Assembly: GCA_900110635.1 (NCBI GenBank)
Contig: FOEK01000028.1
Location: 1-34,231, forward strand
DNA from: Lachnospiraceae bacterium NE2001
Lineage (GTDB): Bacteria > Bacillota > Clostridia > Lachnospirales > Lachnospiraceae
DNA length: 34,231 bases
Reading direction: 5' to 3'
Positions within the stretch are counted from its first letter, which is position 1, and each line of letters begins with the position of its first letter. Below, in pieces: positions 7,996 through 20,114 of this stretch. Position numbers and translations under genes: made by a program. A model generated the notes under the pieces. That model saw nothing but the letters and a program-made list of their open reading frames with translations, made no database searches and was not told the DNA's origin.

Positions 7996-9417
7996 ATGGA
8001 TTTTCAGTCTTGGATTGAGGGGATTGATGGACTTGCAAGTCTGTATTCATTTGATGTATTAGAGGATGGATCCTTCAGTGAGATTCGTCTTATGGCAGTA
8101 AATAAGCAGAATGTGGGAATGCTGCAAATGAATCCGAATGCTCCGGAGTTTTATCCTGGAATACCTTACCGAAATTACTGGATGGATCTCAACTTTGAGA
8201 GCTTCGTATACAAGTGCGCGAGTACTTCCCAGCCTTTATATTCGTACGTGAATGCACGTGGTGTATGGTTGAAAGGCTTCTATATTCCAATCAAGGATTT
8301 TGATGTTTTAGAAGAAGCTAGCGGTGATAAGCAGAGAACGGTTTATTGCTTATATATAATAACGTATTCGGATAAAGTGGAAACTGATTCAATGTCCCAG
8401 AAATCTTCTGATGTAGCAAATGCTGTAATGGAGATAAGCATTAAAATACATGAGACTCCAGATTTTGTTCAATCCATGGCAGCAGCGGCAGCGGAGATTA
8501 AAAAAATATGTGGAGCTGAGAAGTGTTCTCTTTATACAGTTGATAAGAACAGAAGAAGTTGTTCCTTTATTGGCGTAGATGGTATTCAGGATGAAAATCT
8601 TGATGCATTTGCTGCTGAAATGGGCAGAGAACCCTATGAGGTGGCTGAGACGTGGGAAAGAGATCTGGCTCTAAGTGATTGTCTTCTTCTTGAGGATCTC
8701 AAGGTTATTGAAGAACGGGATCCTGAATGGTATCATTCGCTTATTCTGCATGATATCCATAACATTATACTTTATGCAGTTCGTTCAAATCAGACGCTAG
8801 TTGGTTTTATCTGGGTTGCAAACTATGATGTCTCTGCTACAGATAAGATTAAGGAGACTTTGGAGATTTGCAGTTTTCTACTTGCAGCAGTGATCTATAA
8901 TAATCAGCTGCTGGCGCGTCTGGAAGTTAAGAGCATGGTGGATGAACTGACCCAGCTGAGTAGCAGAAATGCTCTGAATGATCGAGTAGAAAAGTATTCA
9001 TCTTCGGATTCTGCTTCACTGAGTACCCTAGGTGTTGTATTTGCAGATCTAAATGGTCTTAAGACTGTAAATGATGAGAAGGGGCATGAAGCAGGAGACA
9101 AGCTGCTTGTCAGGGCAGCGTCGCTTCTGAAAATCGGATTTGGAGATTGGGAGATATACCGTGCCGGCGGAGATGAGTTTGTTATTCTCTGTCCTGGTGT
9201 TTCCGAGGAAGTGATAGAAAAACAGCTAAGTGATATGCGTAATCTTCTGACAAATACAACTGATGTGAGCTTTGCATTTGGAACAGCCTTCTGCACGGAT
9301 ATTCAAGATGTTCAACAGGCAATACAGACTGCGGATGAAGAGATGTACAAGGATAAGGAACTATATTATCTTAATCATCCCGAGAAGGATCGAAGAACTC
9401 ATAAGAGAAATATTTGA
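7996..9417 (+). CDS. Diguanylate cyclase with GAF-like sensor
   Basis: 473 residues from ATG 7996, behind GAGGAGG at 7982-7988. There are no membrane segments. Residues 1-130 form an unrecognised N-terminal region. Residues about 145-305 look like a GAF domain (IHETPDFVQSMAAAAAEIKK, then a core of strands). Residues about 312-470 form a GGDEF domain with the usual VDELTQLSSRNAL entry, FADLNGLKTVNDEKGHEAGD and an intact GGDEF active site at 391-395. The RxxD inhibitory site usually found upstream is absent (Phe and Trp occupy those positions), so product feedback is unlikely. It should make c-di-GMP in the cytoplasm in response to a signal bound by the GAF-like domain. It is a separate unit with its own terminator. 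Confidence 0.92.
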   Translation: MDFQSWIEGIDGLASLYSFDVLEDGSFSEIRLMAVNKQNVGMLQMNPNAPEFYPGIPYRNYWMDLNFESFVYKCASTSQPLYSYVNARGVWLKGFYIPIKDFDVLEEASGDKQRTVYCLYIITYSDKVETDSMSQKSSDVANAVMEISIKIHETPDFVQSMAAAAAEIKKICGAEKCSLYTVDKNRRSCSFIGVDGIQDENLDAFAAEMGREPYEVAETWERDLALSDCLLLEDLKVIEERDPEWYHSLILHDIHNIILYAVRSNQTLVGFIWVANYDVSATDKIKETLEICSFLLAAVIYNNQLLARLEVKSMVDELTQLSSRNALNDRVEKYSSSDSASLSTLGVVFADLNGLKTVNDEKGHEAGDKLLVRAASLLKIGFGDWEIYRAGGDEFVILCPGVSEEVIEKQLSDMRNLLTNTTDVSFAFGTAFCTDIQDVQQAIQTADEEMYKDKELYYLNHPEKDRRTHKRNI

Positions 9418-10602: not shown

Positions 10603-10631
10603 TTTCATGTATACGTATATTTTGGTATAAT
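10603..10631 (+). promoter_or_regulatory. Candidate promoter of the signalling operon
   Basis: TATAAT at 10626-10631 lies 17 bases after TTTCAT (10603-10608). The spacer contains the palindrome ATACGTAT. The Hpt gene begins 65 bases downstream. Confidence 0.45.
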
Positions 10632-10695
10632 AAAACTAGTTTTTTATTCAGTTTTTAGAGGGGGAATAAGACTGAAATAAAAGAAAGGACGAGGG

Positions 10696-11070
10696 ATGAC
10701 AGTTCAGGAGTTATATCAGAAAATTGGCGGTAATTACGAACAGGCTATCAGTGTGCTGCGCGTAGAAAAACTGGTGGATAAGCATATAAGGAAGTTCAGG
10801 TCAAATGGTGTTGTTGACCAGCTTCTTGCCGCAGGGGAAAGTATGGATCCGAATGCTCTCTTTGAAGCAGCTCACGCAGTAAAGGGAGTTTCGGCGAATC
10901 TTGGACTAACTAAGCTTTCAGATATGGCTTCTGAGATAACTGAAGAGTACCGTCCTGGAAATGTCAGAAAGCTTTCTGACGACGAAATAAGAGCGAGACT
11001 TCAGTCTGTAAAAGAGATTTATGAACGTATAGTTGAAGGGGTTTTAGAATATGAGGAGTCTTGCAATTAG
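10696..11070 (+). CDS. Stand-alone Hpt phosphotransfer protein
   Basis: 124 residues, all helical and soluble. The histidine phosphotransfer signature is AAHAVKGVSANLG with H60 as the phospho-acceptor and K63-G64 behind it, followed by the second helix KLSDMASEITEEYR. Hpt proteins shuttle phosphoryl groups between receiver domains in a multistep phosphorelay. It is the first gene of an operon whose later products carry three receiver domains (one in 11110-14007, two in 17419-20097), so it is well placed to take phosphate from them. The gap to the next gene is 39 bases. No other output domain is present. Confidence 0.92.
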   Translation: MTVQELYQKIGGNYEQAISVLRVEKLVDKHIRKFRSNGVVDQLLAAGESMDPNALFEAAHAVKGVSANLGLTKLSDMASEITEEYRPGNVRKLSDDEIRARLQSVKEIYERIVEGVLEYEESCN

Positions 11071-11109
11071 TTATTTGATGTAAAATGTTAACACAGGAGA
11101 GGTTACAGA

Positions 11110-14007
11110 ATGGGGATTACATCAAGCAAAGAAGGCATCTCTTCTGATAATAAAAAATATCTGGGAATTCCTGGTGCCTGGGCACTGGCCTTTGGTTGTA
11201 GCGTTGGCTGGGGCTCTTTTGTAATGCCAGGAACAACATTTCTTCCAATAGCAGGTCCTGTAGGATCTGCAATCGGTCTAACCCTTGGTGGGATTGTCAT
11301 GCTGCTTCTCGCAGTAAATTATCATTACCTTATGAATAAGTATCCGGATAGTGGTGGTGCTTATACATATACAAAGCTTGCTTTTGGATATGATCATGGC
11401 TTTGTAAGTGCGTGGTTTCTTATTCTTACCTATATGGCTATTATATGGGCAAATGCCACAGCTCTTCCTCTTATTATGAAAACGGTTGTTGGTGATACCT
11501 TCCAGGTGGGCTTTCTTTATGAAGTAGCGGGTTATTCTATATACGTTGGTGAGATATTCCTTGCACTGGGAGCTCTGGTTCTTGCGGCCCTTGTTTGTCT
11601 TTATAGAAAGCCTGCTGAGTGGACACAGATTATTATGGCGGCTATTCTTTTTGGCGGCGTTATTATATGCTTTGCAGCGGCTTTAGGAAAGTTTGGAACG
11701 GGAGGCTATTCGCCAGCATTTGCAGGGGATAAAAGTACTACTGCAGGAGTATTTACTATATTTGCCCTTGTACCATGGGCTTTTGTAGGCTTTGAATCCA
11801 TATCTCATAGTGCTGCCGAGGCTAGGTTTTCACTAAAAAAATCCTTTGGTATATTAGCAGCTGCTGTTATAACAGCGACTGTAGCTTATGTGTTGCTTAC
11901 TTTGATGGCTGTAAAGGCGCTTCCGGATGGGTGCAAATCGTGGGAGGATTATATTGGTAATCTTGGGGATTATTCAGGCATTTCCTCCGTACCAACATTT
12001 CACGGTGCATACGCTGCACTGGGAGAGGTGGGTAGGCTTATTCTTGGTGCTGCAGCAATGGGGGCAATTTTCACAGGACTAGTTGGAAACTATATAGCGC
12101 TTAGTCGATTGATATATTCTATAGCAGAGGATGGGCTCTTTCCAGAGTGGTTTTGCGTTAAGAGAGAGATGGTTCCTAGAAATGCTATTCTTGCTATATT
12201 TATTATATCGGCTATATTTCCTTTTCTTGGCCGTACAACGATCAGCTGGATAGTTGATGTTACAACTATTGGGGCAACTATAGCTTATGTGCTGGCATCA
12301 GCCTCTGCATATAAGACAGCGAAGGATGAGAAGAACGAGAGGTTTATGTTTTTCGGACTTGTGGGTGTAGTTGTGTCAGTTCTTTTTGCTTTGGCATTTC
12401 TTATACCAAATATCTTCGCCATCACCACGCTGTCTACCCAGTCCTATCTTATACTTTCAATATGGAGTATCTGCGGACTTCTGTATTTTCGAGTGTTTCT
12501 AAATGCTGATCATCAGAGGCGTTTGGGAAGATCCATCGTTACATGGGTAGTTCTCTTGGGACTTATCATATATACCTCCAGCATCTGGATGCACCAGACT
12601 ATTGGAGCGGCTCTGACAAAGTATCAGAATGACAGTGATAAAATAGCCAGTTCTGTTCATACGGCAAGTCATATACAGCTTTTGATGATTATATTTTCAC
12701 TTATTATTCTTCTTAACATATATGGGATGATGCAGAGAAGAGAGAAGGCTATCGAGGTCGAGAAGCTCCGTGCTGAAAAGACCAGTCAGGCCAAGTCAAG
12801 CTTTTTGTCCAATATGAGCCACGAGATAAGAACACCTATGAATGCCATCATAGGTTTGCAGAAGCTTGCACTGAAGGATCCAGAACTGAAGCCCGAGACC
12901 AGGTCCAGTCTTGAAAAGATTGGCGCCAGCGCAGATCATCTTCTTGGACTGATAAATGATATCCTGGATATGAGCCGCATAGAGTCTGGCAGGATGATGG
13001 TGAAAAAGGATAGGTTTGCATTTCGTAATTTCTTAGATAAGACCAATACAATAATTGAGGGTCAGTGTCAGGAAAAGAGAATAAAGTATTCCTGCAACAT
13101 TATTGGTGATGTGGAGGATTATTACGTTGGTGATGATCTGAAGCTAAGTCAGGTTTTGATCAATATACTTGGTAATGCCGTAAAGTTCACAAATCCTCGT
13201 GGCAGCATATCTCTCGTGGTTGAACAGCTGGATGAAAAAGACGGAATATGTCAGATGCGCTTCATAATGTCTGATACGGGAATTGGCATGGACCCCGAAT
13301 ATATCCCTAAGATATTCGAGACATTTTCACAGGAGGAAGTAAGCAATACCAGTAAATATGGTGGTAGTGGCTTGGGAATGGCTATTACAAAGAATCTGGT
13401 CGAGATGATGGAAGGCGAGATTCTGGTTGAGAGTGTGAAGGGTGAAGGATCAACCTTTACTGTTACTGTTCCACTTGCTCTTACAGCAGAGCCTGAATCA
13501 GCAGAATCAGAGAGCGTTGAATCTAAAACTGGCACAACAGCTATGGAATCTGGTAAAATGTTAGAAGAGCCTCTAAGTGAAGAAAGAATAACAGAAATTA
13601 TTTCTGGCAAGAGAATCCTGATGGCTGAGGATGTTGATCAGAATGCTGAGATTCTTACAGATCTTCTTGAACTAGAGGATGTTATCGCAGCTCGTGCAAG
13701 AAATGGCGAGGAAGCAGTAATGATGTTCTCAAAGAGTGAGCCGGGATTTTATGCAGCTATTCTTATGGATGTACGTATGCCTGTTATGGATGGCCTTGAG
13801 GCTACCCGCACCATACGTAATCTAGGACATCCTGACGCACAGATTATTCCGATTATTGCTATGACTGCAAATGTTTTCGATGAGGATGTGGAGCACTCTC
13901 GTGCGGCTGGTATGGATGCACATCTTTCAAAGCCTGTGGATCCGGATATATTATATGAAACTATGGCAAGACTTATATTAGAACGAACTGCCGGGGAGGT
14001 GGATTAA
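11110..14007 (+). CDS. APC-type permease fused to hybrid histidine kinase
   Basis: 965 residues behind AGGAGAGG. Residues about 15-480 are an APC-superfamily amino acid permease with about 12 hydrophobic segments; the TM1 glycine motif FGCSVGWGSFVMPG matches the substrate-binding unwound helix. Two more hydrophobic segments follow (about 480-540). A short coiled linker leads to HisKA with H571 in SNMSHEIRTPMNAIIG. The ATPase domain is complete: N-box N685/N689, G1 DTGIGM at 722-727, G2 YGGSGLGM at 750-757. A C-terminal receiver starts near 834 with phospho-acceptor D887 in ILMDVRMPVMDG. This is analogous in layout to the Pseudomonas sensor CbrA (SLC5 transporter plus kinase), but with an APC permease. 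It is probably an amino-acid-coupled sensor at the membrane. The next gene begins at the following base. Confidence 0.93.
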   Translation: MGITSSKEGISSDNKKYLGIPGAWALAFGCSVGWGSFVMPGTTFLPIAGPVGSAIGLTLGGIVMLLLAVNYHYLMNKYPDSGGAYTYTKLAFGYDHGFVSAWFLILTYMAIIWANATALPLIMKTVVGDTFQVGFLYEVAGYSIYVGEIFLALGALVLAALVCLYRKPAEWTQIIMAAILFGGVIICFAAALGKFGTGGYSPAFAGDKSTTAGVFTIFALVPWAFVGFESISHSAAEARFSLKKSFGILAAAVITATVAYVLLTLMAVKALPDGCKSWEDYIGNLGDYSGISSVPTFHGAYAALGEVGRLILGAAAMGAIFTGLVGNYIALSRLIYSIAEDGLFPEWFCVKREMVPRNAILAIFIISAIFPFLGRTTISWIVDVTTIGATIAYVLASASAYKTAKDEKNERFMFFGLVGVVVSVLFALAFLIPNIFAITTLSTQSYLILSIWSICGLLYFRVFLNADHQRRLGRSIVTWVVLLGLIIYTSSIWMHQTIGAALTKYQNDSDKIASSVHTASHIQLLMIIFSLIILLNIYGMMQRREKAIEVEKLRAEKTSQAKSSFLSNMSHEIRTPMNAIIGLQKLALKDPELKPETRSSLEKIGASADHLLGLINDILDMSRIESGRMMVKKDRFAFRNFLDKTNTIIEGQCQEKRIKYSCNIIGDVEDYYVGDDLKLSQVLINILGNAVKFTNPRGSISLVVEQLDEKDGICQMRFIMSDTGIGMDPEYIPKIFETFSQEEVSNTSKYGGSGLGMAITKNLVEMMEGEILVESVKGEGSTFTVTVPLALTAEPESAESESVESKTGTTAMESGKMLEEPLSEERITEIISGKRILMAEDVDQNAEILTDLLELEDVIAARARNGEEAVMMFSKSEPGFYAAILMDVRMPVMDGLEATRTIRNLGHPDAQIIPIIAMTANVFDEDVEHSRAAGMDAHLSKPVDPDILYETMARLILERTAGEVD

Positions 14008-17000
14008 TTGGGATATAAAATGAATACTAAAAAGTTAATAGTGGTCCTCCTGCTTCTGGCAATGGTGATAAGCGCTTTAGCTTCATTTACAGTTCAGGCG
14101 GAGGAAAAAGAGCATAAGGTGGTTCGTGTTGGATGGTACGACTCATCCTTTAATTATTATGACGAGTTTGGAAGACGCTGTGGTATAGACTTTGAATACC
14201 TGCAGAAGATATCTGCGTATACTGGATGGACCTACGAATATGTAGAAGACAGCTGGCCTAACCTTCTTGATATGCTAGAGAATGGAGAGATAGATATTCT
14301 TAGTGATGTTTCTTATAAAGAGGAACGTGAAGAATATATGCTGTATCCTGAACTTCCAATGGGTACAGAATCCTATTATATCTTTGTAAGTGCTGATAAT
14401 AGAGAGATAAAAACTGATGATTATACTTCTTTAAATGGGAAACGAATTGGTGTAAATAAGGATAGTCTTCAGCAGGATTTCCTGGAAGCCTGGATAGAAA
14501 AGTATGATATAGATGTAGAAGTTGTTCTTCTTTCTGTTAGTGAGAATGAATCCATGGATATGGTTTTTAATGGAGAGCTTGATGGATATGCATCAATCTT
14601 TGATTTTGATACAGAGAAGGAGGTTATTCCATATTGCCGAATTGGAGGGGCAGATTATTATTACGCTGTAAATAAAGATCGTTCAGATCTTTTGACAGAA
14701 CTGAATATGGCTCTTTCTCAGATACAGGATGAGGATCCATATTTTAATCAGAAGATTACTGACGATCGTCTCTATGGCGATAGTACCAATACGTATCTTT
14801 CTATAACCCAGGAGGACTGGCTGAAGGAGCACGGTCCAATACGTGTAGGATATAGAGATGATTATCTGCCGTTTTGTGATGAGGATGACGAAACAGGTGA
14901 ACTAACGGGAGCTCTTAAGAATTATCTTACTCACGCTGAAATAACTCTGGATAGTAAGTATATTGAGTTTGAGACTATATCTTATGATTCAACAAAGCAG
15001 GCGATAGAAGCTCTTGAAGCAGGTGAGGTTGACTGTATATTCCCTGTTTATTTCAATGCTTATGATGCCGACCAGCAGGGACTCAGGCTTTCAGATGCAG
15101 CTATGAAAACTGAAATGGTTGCTATAATGCGTCAATCAGATGATAGTAGACTGTCCGAGGATAGCGATATGACGATAGCCGTTAATGAAGGAATGATGAA
15201 TATTGAAAACTTCATTATGGACAATTTCCCATATACTAATAGAAAATCTTATCAGGGTCTTGATAAATGCTATAAGGCTGTAGCAGATAAAGACGCTGAT
15301 GGAGTGCTTGTCAGCAGCTACAGAATTCTTCCTGCTGAGGATACACTTGATAAGTATAAGCTCTGCTCTGTACCAACGGGAGAGTCTATGCCATTTTCCT
15401 TTGGTGTAAAAAAATGGGATACTGATCTATACTTCCTTCTGAACAAAACAGTTAAAATAACTGATAACGAAGATATGGATGCAGCTCTTGCCTCATATAT
15501 GAAGGTAGATCAGAAGGTTTCCTATATGAAGTTTTTGAAGGAAAACTGGCTTATAGTTATTTGTATTCTTATTTTAATATTTGCTATTGTTATTTTCCTT
15601 CTTGTTCAGAAGATGAAGGCAGAACGTACAGCAGCAAAGCAGAGAAGGCTTCTTATGGAGGCTGAAGAGATTGCTGATCTGAAGCAGACTATTACCTCTC
15701 TTCTTGATAATATGCCTGGTATGAACTTCACAAAGGATGCCGAAACCGGTGAATACCTTGCCTGCAATCAGGCCTTTGCGGAGTATGCTCATAAAAAGGA
15801 TCCTTCGGAGGTGGTAGGTCTTACACCTAAGGATTTATTTGATGAAAAAACAGCAAAGCGATTCATAGAGGATGATAAAATGGCTCTTTCTATGGATGAA
15901 CCATATATCTTTTTCGATGATATGAAGGATGCGGATGGAACTGTACGTCAGATAAAGACGACAAAGCTTAAATATTCAGATGCAAATGGCCGACTCTGCG
16001 TTCTTGGTATGTTCCTGGATGTTACAGATAACTTCCGTATATCCAGAGATGATGCAAAGACAAAGGATTCTTACGAGAAAGCAAAAAACAGTAGTTTTAT
16101 ATTCTCACATATTGCCCAGGCTCTGGCATATGGATATTTGAATCTATATTACATAGATGTAAATACAGAGGAGTTTATAGAATATCGCACTAATGAGAAT
16201 GGTGGTGGACTTACTGAACTAAGACGTGGCTGGCATTTCTTTGAGGCGTGCCTTGATGAGATAGAGGAATATGTTTATCCAGAGGATAAGGAAGCAATAG
16301 TAAAAGCTATGGATCGTAAGACTCTTGTGGCAGCACTCGATCAGAATGATCCATTTATGATGACCCTGAGAATAATCAGAGATGGCGAACCAAGGTATGT
16401 AAGTTTAAATGCTACCCGTATGAGAGATGATGACCGCTATATTATCCTTAGTCTAACTGATATAGATGAAGAGATGAAACAGCGTAATGCGGCGCAGAAG
16501 ATACTTGAGGAGCAGGGGGCTTACAATAGGATCACTGCTCTTGCCGGTGATTTCTTTGGCATATATGTTGTAGTTCCGGAAACCGGACAGTATCGTGAGC
16601 TCAGTGCAACGGCAGGCTTTGATGCATTCGAGCTTCCTGGTGAGGGAGATAATTTCTTTGAGGCAGCAAGGAAGCAGGCTCTTGCAATAGTTTATCCAGA
16701 GGATCAGAATCGATTCCTTTCTATGCTCTCAAGAGAAAATGTTCTTAAAGAGATAGAGCAGAGTGGTATCTATACACTTAGCTATCGTCTGGTAACAGAT
16801 GGAGAACCTCGTTATGTTCAGCTGAAGGCGGCTATGGTTGAGGAGGCAGAAGGCACTCGTCTTATAATCGGAATAAATGATATAGATGCCCAGGTTCGTC
16901 AGGAAGAGGAGTATGGCAGACGACTGGCTCAGGCTCGTATAGAGGCCAATATCGATGCTCTTACTGGTGTTAAGAACAGAAATGCATATCGTGTTTATGA

Positions 17001-17412
17001 GGAGCGAATAAATGCTCAGATAGAAGTAAATCGTGCACCTGATTTCGCGATTACTATACTTGATGTAAATGACCTGAAGAAGGTAAATGATACTCAGGGA
17101 CATAAGGCTGGTGATCAGTATTTACGAGATGCCTGTCGTATTATATGTACTACATTTAAACGAAGTCCTGTATTCAGAGTGGGTGGAGATGAGTTCTGCG
17201 TTCTGTCTCAGGGGGATGATTATGCACATATCGATGAGCTCGTTGAACAGATGAATGCTCATAATGACGAAGCAATAGAAAATGGTGGAATCGTTATAGC
17301 AATCGGTATGGCAAGGTATGAAAGAGAAGATAAGGTGGCTCCGGTTTATGAGCGGGCTGACCAGACAATGTATGAGAACAAGAGCAGTCTTAAGGCTAGA
17401 AAAAAGGGATAA
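14008..17412 (+). CDS. Membrane diguanylate cyclase with two periplasmic solute-binding domains
   Basis: 1134 residues from a TTG at 14008, eight bases after GGGGAGG; an ATG at 14020 is the alternative. A signal peptide or anchor covers about 8-32 (up to VQA). Two family-3 solute-binding (Venus flytrap) domains follow, about 38-260 (VVRVGWYDSSFNYYDEFG) and about 272-500 (GPIRVGYRDDYLPFCDE), as in BvgS/EvgS sensors. A membrane segment spans 514-534. Inside are a PAS domain (about 562-680), two further PAS-like units (about 690-830 and 835-960), and GGDEF with active site GGDEF at 1059-1063 and ILDVNDLKKVNDTQGHKAGD. No RxxD inhibitory site is present. Predicted role: periplasmic amino acids or similar solutes control c-di-GMP synthesis. 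It is directly adjacent to the genes on both sides. Confidence 0.92.
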   Translation: MGYKMNTKKLIVVLLLLAMVISALASFTVQAEEKEHKVVRVGWYDSSFNYYDEFGRRCGIDFEYLQKISAYTGWTYEYVEDSWPNLLDMLENGEIDILSDVSYKEEREEYMLYPELPMGTESYYIFVSADNREIKTDDYTSLNGKRIGVNKDSLQQDFLEAWIEKYDIDVEVVLLSVSENESMDMVFNGELDGYASIFDFDTEKEVIPYCRIGGADYYYAVNKDRSDLLTELNMALSQIQDEDPYFNQKITDDRLYGDSTNTYLSITQEDWLKEHGPIRVGYRDDYLPFCDEDDETGELTGALKNYLTHAEITLDSKYIEFETISYDSTKQAIEALEAGEVDCIFPVYFNAYDADQQGLRLSDAAMKTEMVAIMRQSDDSRLSEDSDMTIAVNEGMMNIENFIMDNFPYTNRKSYQGLDKCYKAVADKDADGVLVSSYRILPAEDTLDKYKLCSVPTGESMPFSFGVKKWDTDLYFLLNKTVKITDNEDMDAALASYMKVDQKVSYMKFLKENWLIVICILILIFAIVIFLLVQKMKAERTAAKQRRLLMEAEEIADLKQTITSLLDNMPGMNFTKDAETGEYLACNQAFAEYAHKKDPSEVVGLTPKDLFDEKTAKRFIEDDKMALSMDEPYIFFDDMKDADGTVRQIKTTKLKYSDANGRLCVLGMFLDVTDNFRISRDDAKTKDSYEKAKNSSFIFSHIAQALAYGYLNLYYIDVNTEEFIEYRTNENGGGLTELRRGWHFFEACLDEIEEYVYPEDKEAIVKAMDRKTLVAALDQNDPFMMTLRIIRDGEPRYVSLNATRMRDDDRYIILSLTDIDEEMKQRNAAQKILEEQGAYNRITALAGDFFGIYVVVPETGQYRELSATAGFDAFELPGEGDNFFEAARKQALAIVYPEDQNRFLSMLSRENVLKEIEQSGIYTLSYRLVTDGEPRYVQLKAAMVEEAEGTRLIIGINDIDAQVRQEEEYGRRLAQARIEANIDALTGVKNRNAYRVYEERINAQIEVNRAPDFAITILDVNDLKKVNDTQGHKAGDQYLRDACRIICTTFKRSPVFRVGGDEFCVLSQGDDYAHIDELVEQMNAHNDEAIENGGIVIAIGMARYEREDKVAPVYERADQTMYENKSSLKARKKG

Positions 17413-17418
17413 CAGGGT

Positions 17419-20097
17419 ATGTATTATTCGACAATCGGCATACTGGCCGTTTTGACATTATTCATAGTGAACTGGGACATACTTAGAGGTTTCAATGTCA
17501 CCTATGATAAGCCTGCATGGAATGTGTACAGGCGTTTCCTTTATGCTGTCCTGATTTATTATATTACTGATATTTTGTGGGGCATACTGGAAAGTAAGAA
17601 GCTGGTAACATCCCTATTCATTGATACGACTATATATTTTGTTGCCATGGCAGTGGGTATATCCTTCTGGGCTGAGTTTACGGTTGCATATCTGGAAGAA
17701 AAAACAGGGTTTGGCAGGTTTCTTATATATGCAGGACGAACAATTGCAGTCACTATTGCTGTACTGGTTATAGTTAATATCTTTAAACCTGTGCTTTTTA
17801 TCGTTGATGAGGACTGTGTATATAAGGATCTTCCTCTTCGTGATTTTATGCTGGTATGTCAGATATGCCTGCTTATTATCATTTCAATATATGCCTTTAT
17901 TTCCTTGTTTAAGATTGAGGATGATGCTTCAAAACGAGTAAGATATAGGATACTTGCCTCCTTTGGATTAGTCACAGCTCTTTGTCTCTTTATTCAGTTA
18001 TGGTTCCCGTATCTGCCAATCTATTCTATTGCATATATGCTGGGAACCTGTCTCCTGCATTCATTTGTTGCAAATGATGAAAAGGAGGATAATAAACGTC
18101 GTCAGGAACTGGCAAAGAAGATTGAGGAGCTTAAAGAGAGATTTTCTGCGCTGCTTGACAATATGCCAGGTATGGCTTTTACCAAGGATGCTAAAACAGG
18201 TGTGTATCTGGCCTGCAATCAGGGATTTGCTGAGTATGCACAGAAGAACAGTCCTGATGAAGTAGTTGGACTTAAGGCTGTTGATATATTTGATGCTGAT
18301 ACAGCAGCTCACATTGTTCGGGACGATAAGGTGGCTCTGTCTCTTAGCAAGCCATACATCTTTTTTGAGGATATATATGATGCGGCTGGTAATCAGAAAC
18401 AGCTTCAGACAACAAAACTGAAGTATACAGATACCTCTGGAAGACTGTGTGTTCTTGGTATGTGTCAGGATGTTACAGATATGGTGAGCGTGCAGCATGA
18501 ACAAGCTATGACCAAGGAGGCTTATGAGAATGCAATAAGCTCAGGTCTCATGTTTACCAATATAGCTCAGACACTGGCCCGTGACTATATAGATATGTAT
18601 TATATCGATGGTGACACAGAGGAGTTTATTGAGTACCAGAAGGATGAGGAAGGTGGTGCTTTGACAGAGGTTCGCAGGGGATGGCATTTCTTTAGTGACT
18701 GCAAGCTGGAACTGTCTGAAATGGTATGCGAGGAAGATCGCGAAGCTTTCTTGCAGGCGTTGCATCGAAAGACATTGATGAAGGTTCTGGAGAATAAGAA
18801 TACATTTTCTTTGACATATAGAGTAAAGACTGTAGACGAAGGTGTCTATGTCAACATGAAGATATCTAAGATGGATGATGAGAAATATATCATTATGGGT
18901 ATTACAAATGTTGATGCAGAGATGCGAGAGACCATGGCTAAGAATGAAGCTCTGGCAAATGCACTAAGCTCTATTGAGAAGGTCAATAAGGATAAGGTGG
19001 CATTTCTATCCAGCATGACTCATGAGATTCGTACCCCTATAAATGTGATAATTGGTCTTGAAACACTTGCAATGAAAAATGCTCAGATGGACGATAAGAG
19101 CCGAGAGTATATGGAAAAGATTGGAGAAAGTGCAAATCAGCTCTTGGGAATAATAAATGATGTATTGATCGTTGGACGGTCTGATACAGGACGAGTTGAT
19201 GATCTGGATGCCGTAAAGTCCAAGGATAATGAAGAGCTTGTTGATTACTTAGAAAAGAACACGTCCAGTTCTCTTGATCTTAATGCACTGAATGTCCTGG
19301 TTATTGATGATAATCCTATTGAGGCGGAGTACGCTCTTATGGTGCTGAAGGAGGTTGGGATTAGAGCTGATGCCTGTACAAGTGGTCAGGAGGCTCTCCA
19401 AAAGATGGAGGTACAGAAAGGAAAGCAAAAACTGTATAATCTGGTGCTGATGGACTGGAGTATGGAGGGAATGAGTGGCCTGGAAACAGCGACTGAGATA
19501 AGAAGGCTTTATTCTGGAAAGTGTACGGTTGTTGCTCATACAGCTAACAACTGGGAGGATATTCGTGAGGAGGCACAAGGCACAGGCGTATATAATTACC
19601 TTGCGAAACCTCTCTTTGAGGCAAATATTCTGGCCAATATAGAACAGATCGCACGCCAGTGTGATATGAATATATTTAAAGAGAAGAAGCGTGCTAAGCT
19701 GTCTGGACGTCGCATCCTTCTAGCTGAGGATGTTGAGATAAACGCTGAAATTCTCACTGATACTCTCGAGATAGAAAACATCAAGGTTGATCACGTTGCC
19801 AACGGCTTGGAGGCAGTGAAAATGTTTGAACAGAGTACTGCTGGAATATATGGTGCAATCCTTATGGATGTACGTATGCCAGTGATGGATGGCCTTGAGG
19901 CGTCTAGGGCAATCCGGGCTCTTGACCGGGAGGATGCAAAGCGTATCCCGATCATAGCACTTACGGCAAATGCTTTCGATGATGACGTACAGCGGTCCTT
20001 GCAGGCTGGCATGAACGCCCACCTTACCAAGCCTGTGGATATGGAAAATCTACTAAGAATTCTCGGCGAACTAATATATGAAGCAGAGGTCTCCTGA
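17419..20097 (+). CDS. 7TM-PAS-HisKA-REC-REC protein lacking the kinase ATPase domain
   Basis: 892 residues. About seven membrane helices (1-220) form an MASE-like sensory head. A PAS domain (about 238-355) and a second PAS-like unit (about 365-500) closely match those of the preceding gene. HisKA follows with H535 in SSMTHEIRTPINVIIG. Only about 90 residues separate H535 from the first receiver and no N, G1 or G2 box is visible, so the catalytic ATPase domain is missing. REC1 (about 623-745) has D679 in LVLMDWSMEG; REC2 (about 763-885) has D817 in ILMDVRMPVMDG, very like the receiver of the 11110-14007 protein. It cannot phosphorylate itself and probably relays phosphate from another kinase. 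It is the last gene of the operon; the terminator overlaps the stop codon. Confidence 0.92.
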   Translation: MYYSTIGILAVLTLFIVNWDILRGFNVTYDKPAWNVYRRFLYAVLIYYITDILWGILESKKLVTSLFIDTTIYFVAMAVGISFWAEFTVAYLEEKTGFGRFLIYAGRTIAVTIAVLVIVNIFKPVLFIVDEDCVYKDLPLRDFMLVCQICLLIIISIYAFISLFKIEDDASKRVRYRILASFGLVTALCLFIQLWFPYLPIYSIAYMLGTCLLHSFVANDEKEDNKRRQELAKKIEELKERFSALLDNMPGMAFTKDAKTGVYLACNQGFAEYAQKNSPDEVVGLKAVDIFDADTAAHIVRDDKVALSLSKPYIFFEDIYDAAGNQKQLQTTKLKYTDTSGRLCVLGMCQDVTDMVSVQHEQAMTKEAYENAISSGLMFTNIAQTLARDYIDMYYIDGDTEEFIEYQKDEEGGALTEVRRGWHFFSDCKLELSEMVCEEDREAFLQALHRKTLMKVLENKNTFSLTYRVKTVDEGVYVNMKISKMDDEKYIIMGITNVDAEMRETMAKNEALANALSSIEKVNKDKVAFLSSMTHEIRTPINVIIGLETLAMKNAQMDDKSREYMEKIGESANQLLGIINDVLIVGRSDTGRVDDLDAVKSKDNEELVDYLEKNTSSSLDLNALNVLVIDDNPIEAEYALMVLKEVGIRADACTSGQEALQKMEVQKGKQKLYNLVLMDWSMEGMSGLETATEIRRLYSGKCTVVAHTANNWEDIREEAQGTGVYNYLAKPLFEANILANIEQIARQCDMNIFKEKKRAKLSGRRILLAEDVEINAEILTDTLEIENIKVDHVANGLEAVKMFEQSTAGIYGAILMDVRMPVMDGLEASRAIRALDREDAKRIPIIALTANAFDDDVQRSLQAGMNAHLTKPVDMENLLRILGELIYEAEVS

Positions 20098-20114
20098 TGG
20101 AGGCCTCTTTTTTT
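20085..20114 (+). terminator. Intrinsic terminator of the signalling operon
   Basis: AGAGGTCTCC pairs with GGAGGCCTCT around TGAT and is followed by a T run to 20114. The stem includes the stop codon of the preceding gene. Confidence 0.88.

Follow-up and report, generated by a model that had tools for sequence, protein, structure and literature searches.

A permease-type receptor kinase operon of Lachnospiraceae bacterium NE2001, apparently an offshoot of a widespread phosphorelay cassette

A general scheme of bacterial signalling leads from a hybrid histidine kinase through a histidine phosphotransfer (Hpt) protein to a receiver-bearing enzyme of cyclic di-GMP (c-di-GMP) metabolism. EvgS senses through tandem Venus-flytrap domains, and RetS carries a seven-helix membrane part with a 7TMR-DISM sensor. 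Here we analyse a four-gene operon of Lachnospiraceae bacterium NE2001 (assembly GCA_900110635.1), located in a stretch of 34,231 nucleotides (contig FOEK01000028.1, positions 1 to 34,231, forward strand; hereafter the window), which encodes an Hpt protein, a receptor kinase with a permease-like domain of the amino acid-polyamine-organocation (APC) type, a diguanylate cyclase and a hybrid kinase devoid of an ATPase domain. As judged from sequence, the operon is apparently a genus-specific offshoot of a widespread APC-receptor phosphorelay cassette. Transporter-type domains fused to histidine kinases for nutrient sensing are described for CbrA and the SLC5-STAC transceptor kinases (PMC13022988, PMC7096432, PMC9100948), where the fusion is termed a rare example (PMC13022988), and for the Amt-type ammonium sensor kinase of Kuenenia (PMC5764959). 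RetS of Pseudomonas aeruginosa combines HisKA, a degenerate ATPase domain and two receivers (REC), of which REC2 takes phosphate from GacS, while the HExxT motif of HisKA serves as a phosphatase (PMC5992135).

The operon consists of four collinear open reading frames, separated by gaps of 39, 0 and 6 bases:

10696..11070, + strand: gene 1, free Hpt protein of 124 residues, phospho-acceptor H60 (PF01627, 7.2e-9; HxxKG motif present as HAVKG)
11110..14007, + strand: gene 2, APC permease-like receptor fused to HisKA-HATPase-REC, 965 residues (Pfam, AlphaFold, AdiC/GkApcT fold matches)
14008..17412, + strand: gene 3, diguanylate cyclase with two SBP_bac_3 domains, PAS regions and GGDEF, 1134 residues (TTG start; ATG at 14020)
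17419..20097, + strand: gene 4, seven-helix-PAS-PAS-HisKA-REC-REC protein of 892 residues without HATPase (Pfam, profiles, AlphaFold model)

This arrangement, with its gaps and a stem at its end, had been described in a first-pass annotation of the DNA and was borne out by the reading frame map and a terminator-like stem; the unit had been said to start at 10603, and the operon is real but its Hpt gene begins at 10696. Pfam recovered every domain named there for the four genes. That inventory omitted the seven helices at the N-terminus of gene 4 as well as the PAS regions that genes 3 and 4 both carry.

The transporter part of gene 2 is of the AA_permease_2 type (AdiC/GkApcT fold) and not SLC5 as in CbrA: AA_permease_2 and AA_permease were its only transporter matches in Pfam, and no SLC5/SSS domain was found. 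No STAC four-helix bundle was modelled in gene 2 or matched in Pfam, the existence of a Pfam STAC model being unchecked. Gene 2 also differs from CbrA in its extra helices, in one long helix running into the DHp domain, in its own REC and free Hpt, and in having relatives tied to c-di-GMP enzymes. The Kuenenia kinase belongs to a different transporter family, and no relay cassette is mentioned in the available part of its description (PMC5764959). Gene 4 shares with RetS a HisKA, a non-functional or absent ATPase and two RECs (PMC5992135), but has two PAS regions, and the ATPase is wholly gone in eight genus copies carrying both RECs; a 7TMR-DISM sensor had no Pfam match in gene 4, where the helices start at residue 2. 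Gene 3 resembles BvgS and EvgS in its tandem SBP_bac_3-type (Venus-flytrap) domains, with GGDEF instead of a kinase relay as output. No APC-kinase relay, APC-kinase fusion or APC-GGDEF receptor was recognised as described in open-licence PubMed Central, judged from titles and abstract starts; the parts are of known kinds, whereas their combination and spread appear undescribed in the open-licence literature searched.

Relatives were sampled as the best 80 of at least 588, so that the sample leans to close kin. With APC reading frames shorter than 400 residues and six near-identical copies dropped (151 to 145 non-redundant APC loci), 117 loci encoded a fusion of the APC domain to a histidine kinase (APC-HK). 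An Hpt and a REC-GGDEF(-EAL) protein accompanied the APC-HK at 42 of these loci; 15 were of the window type, 16 had an Hpt only (five contig-cut, and three more, L211, L217 and L229, where a fragment of GGDEF or EAL adjoins the Hpt), five had a REC-GGDEF only (L105 and L269 with an Hpt on the opposite strand), and 39 had neither. The background, 656 genes lying more than four places away, contained one Hpt, no REC-GGDEF and four proteins with any GGDEF. The exact order HK-REC, REC-GGDEF-EAL, Hpt, APC-HK-REC(-REC) was found in 30 of the 42 loci. According to submitters' record titles, the cassette occurs in Lachnospiraceae, other Clostridia, Atopobiaceae, Coriobacteriaceae and Erysipelotrichaceae, and APC-HKs with neither partner in Selenomonadaceae and Oscillospiraceae among others. 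The REC-GGDEF-EAL proteins (51, one identical pair among them) retain EAL(I/V)R in 50 cases and GG(D/E)EF in none, and the cassette output should therefore be c-di-GMP breakdown. The cassette follows the domain order of the general relay scheme; it departs from that scheme in the APC permease fold of its receptor and in a degenerate GGDEF with an intact EAL motif, and the window form in lacking the receiver-bearing enzyme; the terminal receiver found on the c-di-GMP enzyme of the cassette is absent from gene 3. Single-chain APC-GGDEF and APC-GGDEF-REC-GGDEF-EAL fusions were also found. A complete HK-REC, REC-GGDEF-EAL, Hpt, APC-HK cassette is directly preceded in one genome (L203:1182-6299) by genes for an APC-GGDEF fusion and for an EAL-GGDEF protein.

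In a quick APC-domain tree (135 of 145 rows kept, APC-only and short rows dropped; SH-aLRT support, no bootstrap, midpoint root), the window-type clade of 25 rows (15 window, 9 Hpt-only, 1 neither; SH-aLRT 99) was enclosed by a clade of 59 rows (29 cassette, 15 window, 14 Hpt-only, 1 neither; SH-aLRT 100), and this by one of 68 rows with 37 cassette loci (SH-aLRT 89). An intermediate arrangement, SBP-cyclase, gene 4, HK-REC, Hpt and APC-HK, was found in L131 (genome G402), whose HK-REC is 56% identical to the cassette HK-REC of L203, and a receiver like that of the cassette HK-REC (63-66%) still lies 5' of the Hpt in L135 and L196. The window Hpt is 48-64% identical to seven cassette Hpts and 31% to the other free Hpt of its genome. 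The latter belongs to the only close REC-GGDEF-EAL protein of the window genome, on contig C59, which matched at 1e-120 or below in 44 of 61 genus genomes, fusions included, and is a separate paralogue because a C59-type copy (69 and 76%) coexists with a cassette copy (51%) in G408 and G416. The C59 Hpt is 56% identical to the Hpt of L102. At that locus (L185:12440-17615; contig C59 of genome G000) the REC-GGDEF-EAL and second Hpt genes adjoin an opposite-strand HK-REC-REC gene, likely forming, by their domains, a second relay in this genome.

Within the genus sample of 61 genomes, for which the locus table was compiled by hand, the APC domain matched at 1e-20 in 26 genomes, and 20 were counted as having a window-type APC-HK (at least 64% identity, some cut by contig ends). 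An Hpt lies directly 5' of the APC-HK in all 19 assessable genomes (G444 has no flank). Genes 3 and 4 follow gene 2 in the window order at 13 of 19 assessable loci: on one contig in nine (G000, G400, G436, G424, G441, G432, G398, G433 and G442; gene 3 of G441 is split by a frame break) and consistently across contig ends in four (G439, G434, G426 and G431; in G439 gene 2 followed by gene 3 is visible, the start of the gene 4 contig not having been fetched). The four genes are rearranged but together in G402, adjacency is absent in G455, G444, G428, G443 and G430, and G437 is cut and not assessable. The gap between genes 2 and 3 ranges from -86 to +43 bases (median 1, 15 loci). Gene 4 is present in 32 genomes (at least 50% identity over the first 224 residues), gene 3 in 29 of them, and in the remaining three gene 4 stands at a contig end; the gap between the two is -1 to 30 bases (median 7, 28 loci). 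APC-HK remnants lie beside genes 3 and 4 in G397, G401 and G452, and a remnant in G421 is accompanied by gene 3 fragments and no gene 4 of window type; at these four decayed loci no intact Hpt was found, with no profile match in L146, L148 and L149 and a degenerate one in L166. Since genes 3 and 4 occur in genomes without the Hpt and APC-HK, they are separable from genes 1 and 2. By these comparisons the unit is conserved in the genus as two modules, Hpt with APC-HK and gene 3 with gene 4. The co-occurrence of the four architectures in relatives, named beforehand in the first-pass annotation as the check on its unit, was therefore found in the 13 loci; its single relay system gains from this conservation and from the receiver-bearing c-di-GMP enzyme beside relatives in the 42 cassette loci, and loses by the separability of genes 3 and 4.

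Gene 2 matched AA_permease_2 (1.5e-21), HisKA, HATPase_c and Response_reg in Pfam, and its domains are placed as follows:

11155..12597, + strand: APC domain, residues 16-496, helix break at the conserved GWG of transmembrane helix 1 (TM1) (profile, alignments, model)
12772..12996, + strand: HisKA/DHp, residues 555-629, H571 (profile, motif)
13123..13476, + strand: HATPase, residues 672-789, G2 box GGSGLG (profile, motif)
13612..13968, + strand: REC, residues 835-953, D887 (profile, motif)

In the AlphaFold model the APC part has a broken first helix and a fold matching AdiC and the CAT homologue GkApcT (target TM-scores 0.83 and 0.79), the latter also matched in sequence (1.7e-9), while the best fold matches for the whole model are histidine kinases. 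A helix of residues 509-587 passes from the membrane part straight into DHp, and further helices span residues 443-466 and 477-504. Across 32 APC fusions, the GWG of TM1 and the PWxxxGFE of TM6 are either invariant or conserved in at least 90%. In GkApcT a TM5 lysine has a role in proton coupling; its position is occupied by L180 in gene 2, at least 90% kept in the same fusions. The fold makes an amino acid or amine the likely ligand; the amino-acid-responsive character claimed in the first pass has no ground but this fold and is unsupported as stated. The APC-HK motif patterns are intact in 15 of 15 window-type copies, and HisKA-HATPase-REC together with a free Hpt bearing HxxKG (Pfam match of gene 1, 7e-9) makes a complete set, so that a phosphorelay from gene 2 to gene 1 is likely on these motifs. 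In the family, the patterns also used for gene 4 matched His in 109, G1 in 109 and G2 in 103 of 110 APC-HKs; the N-box pattern, matched in 70 of 110, was too strict for use.

Gene 4 showed PAS_4, HisKA and two Response_reg matches and no HATPase_c in Pfam, and profiles and the AlphaFold model placed two PAS folds after seven long N-terminal helices:

17419..18084, + strand: N-terminal region, residues 1-222, seven long helices read as transmembrane (AlphaFold model)
18976..19197, + strand: HisKA/DHp, residues 520-593, H535 (profile, motif), next to a low-confidence linker where relatives carry HATPase
19294..19644, + strand: REC1, residues 626-742, D679 (profile, motif)
19711..20064, + strand: REC2, residues 765-882, D817, 62% identical to the gene 2 REC (profile, alignment)

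A HisKA without ATPase, which the first pass had counted as part of the set, holds for the window and is the minority state, as HATPase is present in 22 of 33 gene 4 copies (duplicates L117, L193, L194, L195 and L218 were left out of motif, substitution and His counts). Among those 22, a canonical G2 box occurs only in L169, which has Tyr for His, and the two features coincide in 0 of 32 copies (the contig-cut L181 left out). The HisKA His is kept in 29 of 33 copies (5'-cut L184 counted), and in every REC-bearing copy both receivers, where present, match the pattern of acidic, Asp and Lys positions. On a tree of the sensory part, still containing two duplicate pairs, there are five changes of ATPase state, two or more of them forced by well-supported branches, with gain and loss indistinguishable there; because the ATPases of L120, L134, L170 and L198 are degenerate, repeated loss is the simpler reading, and the absence is best read from these sequences as a derived loss, probably repeated. 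The HisKA-REC1 remnant varies among copies and the linker evolves freely, being unconstrained between the window and L118 (nonsynonymous rate dN 0.93, synonymous rate dS 1.0), while HisKA of ATPase-less pairs has a dN/dS of 0.12 (window-L118) and 0.09 (L129-L166), all by simple counting with dS near saturation; HisKA of gene 2 is far more constrained (0.01). Gene 4 is, by its motifs and substitution pattern, a maintained protein whose kinase function has been lost or weakened, and by its domain content a RetS-like receiver protein with both receivers intact. In addition to its likeness to the gene 2 REC, REC2 is 65% identical to two cassette APC-HK RECs and 54-58% to two cassette HK-RECs, as against 26-36% for REC1 with the same set; by identity it is REC2, not REC1, that belongs to the class of relay receivers on APC-HKs and the cassette HK-REC. 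HK-REC-Hpt proteins near some gene 4 copies (seven compared, two of them elsewhere in the window genome) are not favoured as its natural partner, because their RECs are 26-38% identical to the window RECs and their Hpts 22-30% to the window Hpt. At two loci (L165:4473-8922 and L167:2253-6717), gene 4 homologues stop after a His-less HisKA and a separate HK-REC-Hpt gene comes directly next. Outside the genus, in 299 genomes family-wide with three candidates scored per genome, the matches listed were mostly general REC-REC kinases, so that absence of gene 4 is weakly shown.

Pfam analysis of gene 3 revealed two SBP_bac_3 stretches, PAS_4, a weak PAS_3 under its cut-off and GGDEF (7e-23), with no REC. 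For the binding domains, matches were found to glutamine-type binding proteins and to the tandem domains of BvgS, whose periplasmic region was the second-best PDB match (4q0c, 4.2e-9), and the PAS regions sit between them and the output domain:

16942..17394, + strand: GGDEF domain with intact GGDEF motif and without an RxxD I-site at the customary spacing (profile, motif)

The I-site RxxD stands at a fixed spacing from the GGDEF motif, and that motif is kept in 29 of 29 gene 3 copies, as expected of a predicted diguanylate cyclase. Since this cyclase has no receiver, ordinary phosphotransfer from the relay to gene 3 is impossible and any link between them must be indirect; that the relay drives the cyclase is therefore not supported as stated.

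The explanation that best fits the locus as a whole, which has in our judgement an even chance of being right, is a derivative of the cassette in which a relay operates with gene 4 as a receiver-based valve and with indirect coupling to the cyclase. The APC-fold receptor of gene 2 would control its own kinase through the long helix into DHp, and by established two-component logic phosphate would pass from H571 to D887 of gene 2 and on to H60 of the gene 1 Hpt. In the cassette the Hpt would next serve the receiver of the REC-GGDEF-EAL phosphodiesterase; in the window form, neither this enzyme nor its companion HK-REC is found at the locus, which has genes 3 and 4 in their place. Gene 3 would make c-di-GMP under the control of its own PAS domains and paired binding domains. 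Lacking an ATPase domain, gene 4 is incapable of autophosphorylation; phosphate would move between its REC2 and either the Hpt or the APC kinase, and gene 4 would in this way drain, store or gate the relay, as RetS does with GacS, and its DHp may be retained as a dimer or phosphatase scaffold. Its REC class suggests that gene 4 may bind or drain a partner kinase, and a role as phosphate valve of the relay is plausible. Joint expression and a receiver protein shared by both sides, and not a phosphate handed directly to the cyclase, would then tie permease-type sensing to c-di-GMP synthesis.

Several observations weigh against this explanation. Neither partner was found at the 39 loci mentioned above (five contig-cut), and Hpts of the REC-GGDEF-EAL followed by Hpt type, located 3' of some distant APC-HKs, are only 29-38% identical to the window Hpt. 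In nine genomes of the genus, genes 3 and 4 occur without an APC-HK match; completeness is 96-100% in four of these (G409, G412, G399 and G435) and 65-80% in five (G413, G405, G427, G414 and G445). The main partner of gene 4 may therefore be another kinase. Constraint on HisKA is weaker in gene 4 than in gene 2 (window-L118 dN 0.204 against 0.017), and GSSGLG in place of GGSGLG may leave ATP binding intact. The class match of REC2 is not exclusive, because other hybrid kinases of the genome carry similar receivers (C42 and C59, 60 and 57% identical to the gene 2 REC; the last REC of the C59 kinase, 64% to REC2). ATPase loss was not tied to the presence of the APC kinase (5/8 against 10/20, Fisher p 0.69, counts hand-compiled), nor was concerted evolution upheld, with same-genome identities of 57.2 against 56.5 for PAS_A of genes 3 and 4 (a value reached in 132 of 5000 permutations), 45.5 against 45.1 for their PAS_B (735 of 5000) and 60.9 against 61.3 for REC2 of gene 4 with the REC of gene 2 (2365 of 3000).

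It is possible, though we consider it doubtful, that two independent modules are merely neighbours, the Hpt and APC-HK serving a regulator elsewhere such as the C59 REC-GGDEF-EAL, and genes 3 and 4 being a c-di-GMP pair of their own that shares at most transcription. The persistence of gene 3 in 29 of the 32 gene 4 genomes, with contig ends in the other three, the survival of both genes beyond the APC-HK, and the stand-alone REC-GGDEF-EAL with its own Hpt (L185) would agree with this, but the window order in 13 of 19 assessable genomes and the tight gene 2-gene 3 spacing at 15 loci speak for a unit, and it is the C59 Hpt, distant from the window Hpt, that adjoins that phosphodiesterase. An unlikely alternative has the HisKA of gene 4 as a working phospho-acceptor, which would pair with the DHp of the APC-HK, be phosphorylated in trans and feed the two RECs. 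The widely kept His, purifying selection on HisKA in ATPase-less pairs, an identity of 49-69% between the HisKA domains of genes 2 and 4 within ten genomes, and a DHp hairpin modelled intact at modest confidence fit such pairing; however, the protein persists where the His is lost (L165, L167, L169 and L172), ATPase-less copies occur without APC-HK as well (L168 and L172), and HisKA pairs from one genome are not more similar than those across genomes. Still less probable is the model of the first-pass annotation, one amino-acid-driven relay switching the gene 3 cyclase directly: the operon structure and the cassette link of APC-HK, Hpt and c-di-GMP enzyme speak for it, but gene 3 has binding and PAS domains of its own and no receiver, and in the cassette the enzyme presumed to be under relay control is another protein, which bears a REC and has kept its EAL motif.

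Further features flank the operon:

10626..10631, + strand: TATAAT, possible -10 element 5' of the operon (read in the sequence; absent from the consensus-scan list; weak)
20085..20108, + strand: terminator-like stem and T-run spanning the gene 4 stop codon (terminator scan)

The single stem is weak evidence, because 18 terminator-like sites were observed between 9300 and 22500, where shuffles gave an expectation of 6.9. The idea of a second operon copy in the genome was dismissed: the window from 11360 onward (11360-34231) also forms the beginning of C41, another contig of the assembly, and with 20000 of 20000 compared bases identical this is likely a contig overlap. A further GGDEF protein with a weak N-terminal GAF match is encoded 1.3 kb before the operon (7996-9417). 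Elsewhere, an APC permease is fused to an iron-containing alcohol dehydrogenase (L112:7029-9728, - strand, 899 residues), and APC frames of 883-907 residues in several other genomes may be the same fusion.

Many gut genomes encode an APC-type transporter-kinase, and c-di-GMP enzymes lie next to it far more often than in the local background. More broadly, and as a tentative proposal, bacteria of the ruminant gut would have an entire class of c-di-GMP receptors derived from APC permeases, with at least three wirings, namely the relay to REC-GGDEF-EAL, the APC-GGDEF and APC-GGDEF-REC-GGDEF-EAL fusions, and the cyclase with pseudokinase of the window, whose lineage would have switched its output from breaking to making c-di-GMP and turned the receivers of an ATPase-free kinase into a phosphate valve. 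The locus makes it possible to test whether sensing of the amino-acid type feeds into c-di-GMP signalling, and gene 4 provides a natural series from damaged to deleted ATPase in which to ask what purpose is served by a kinase unable to phosphorylate itself.

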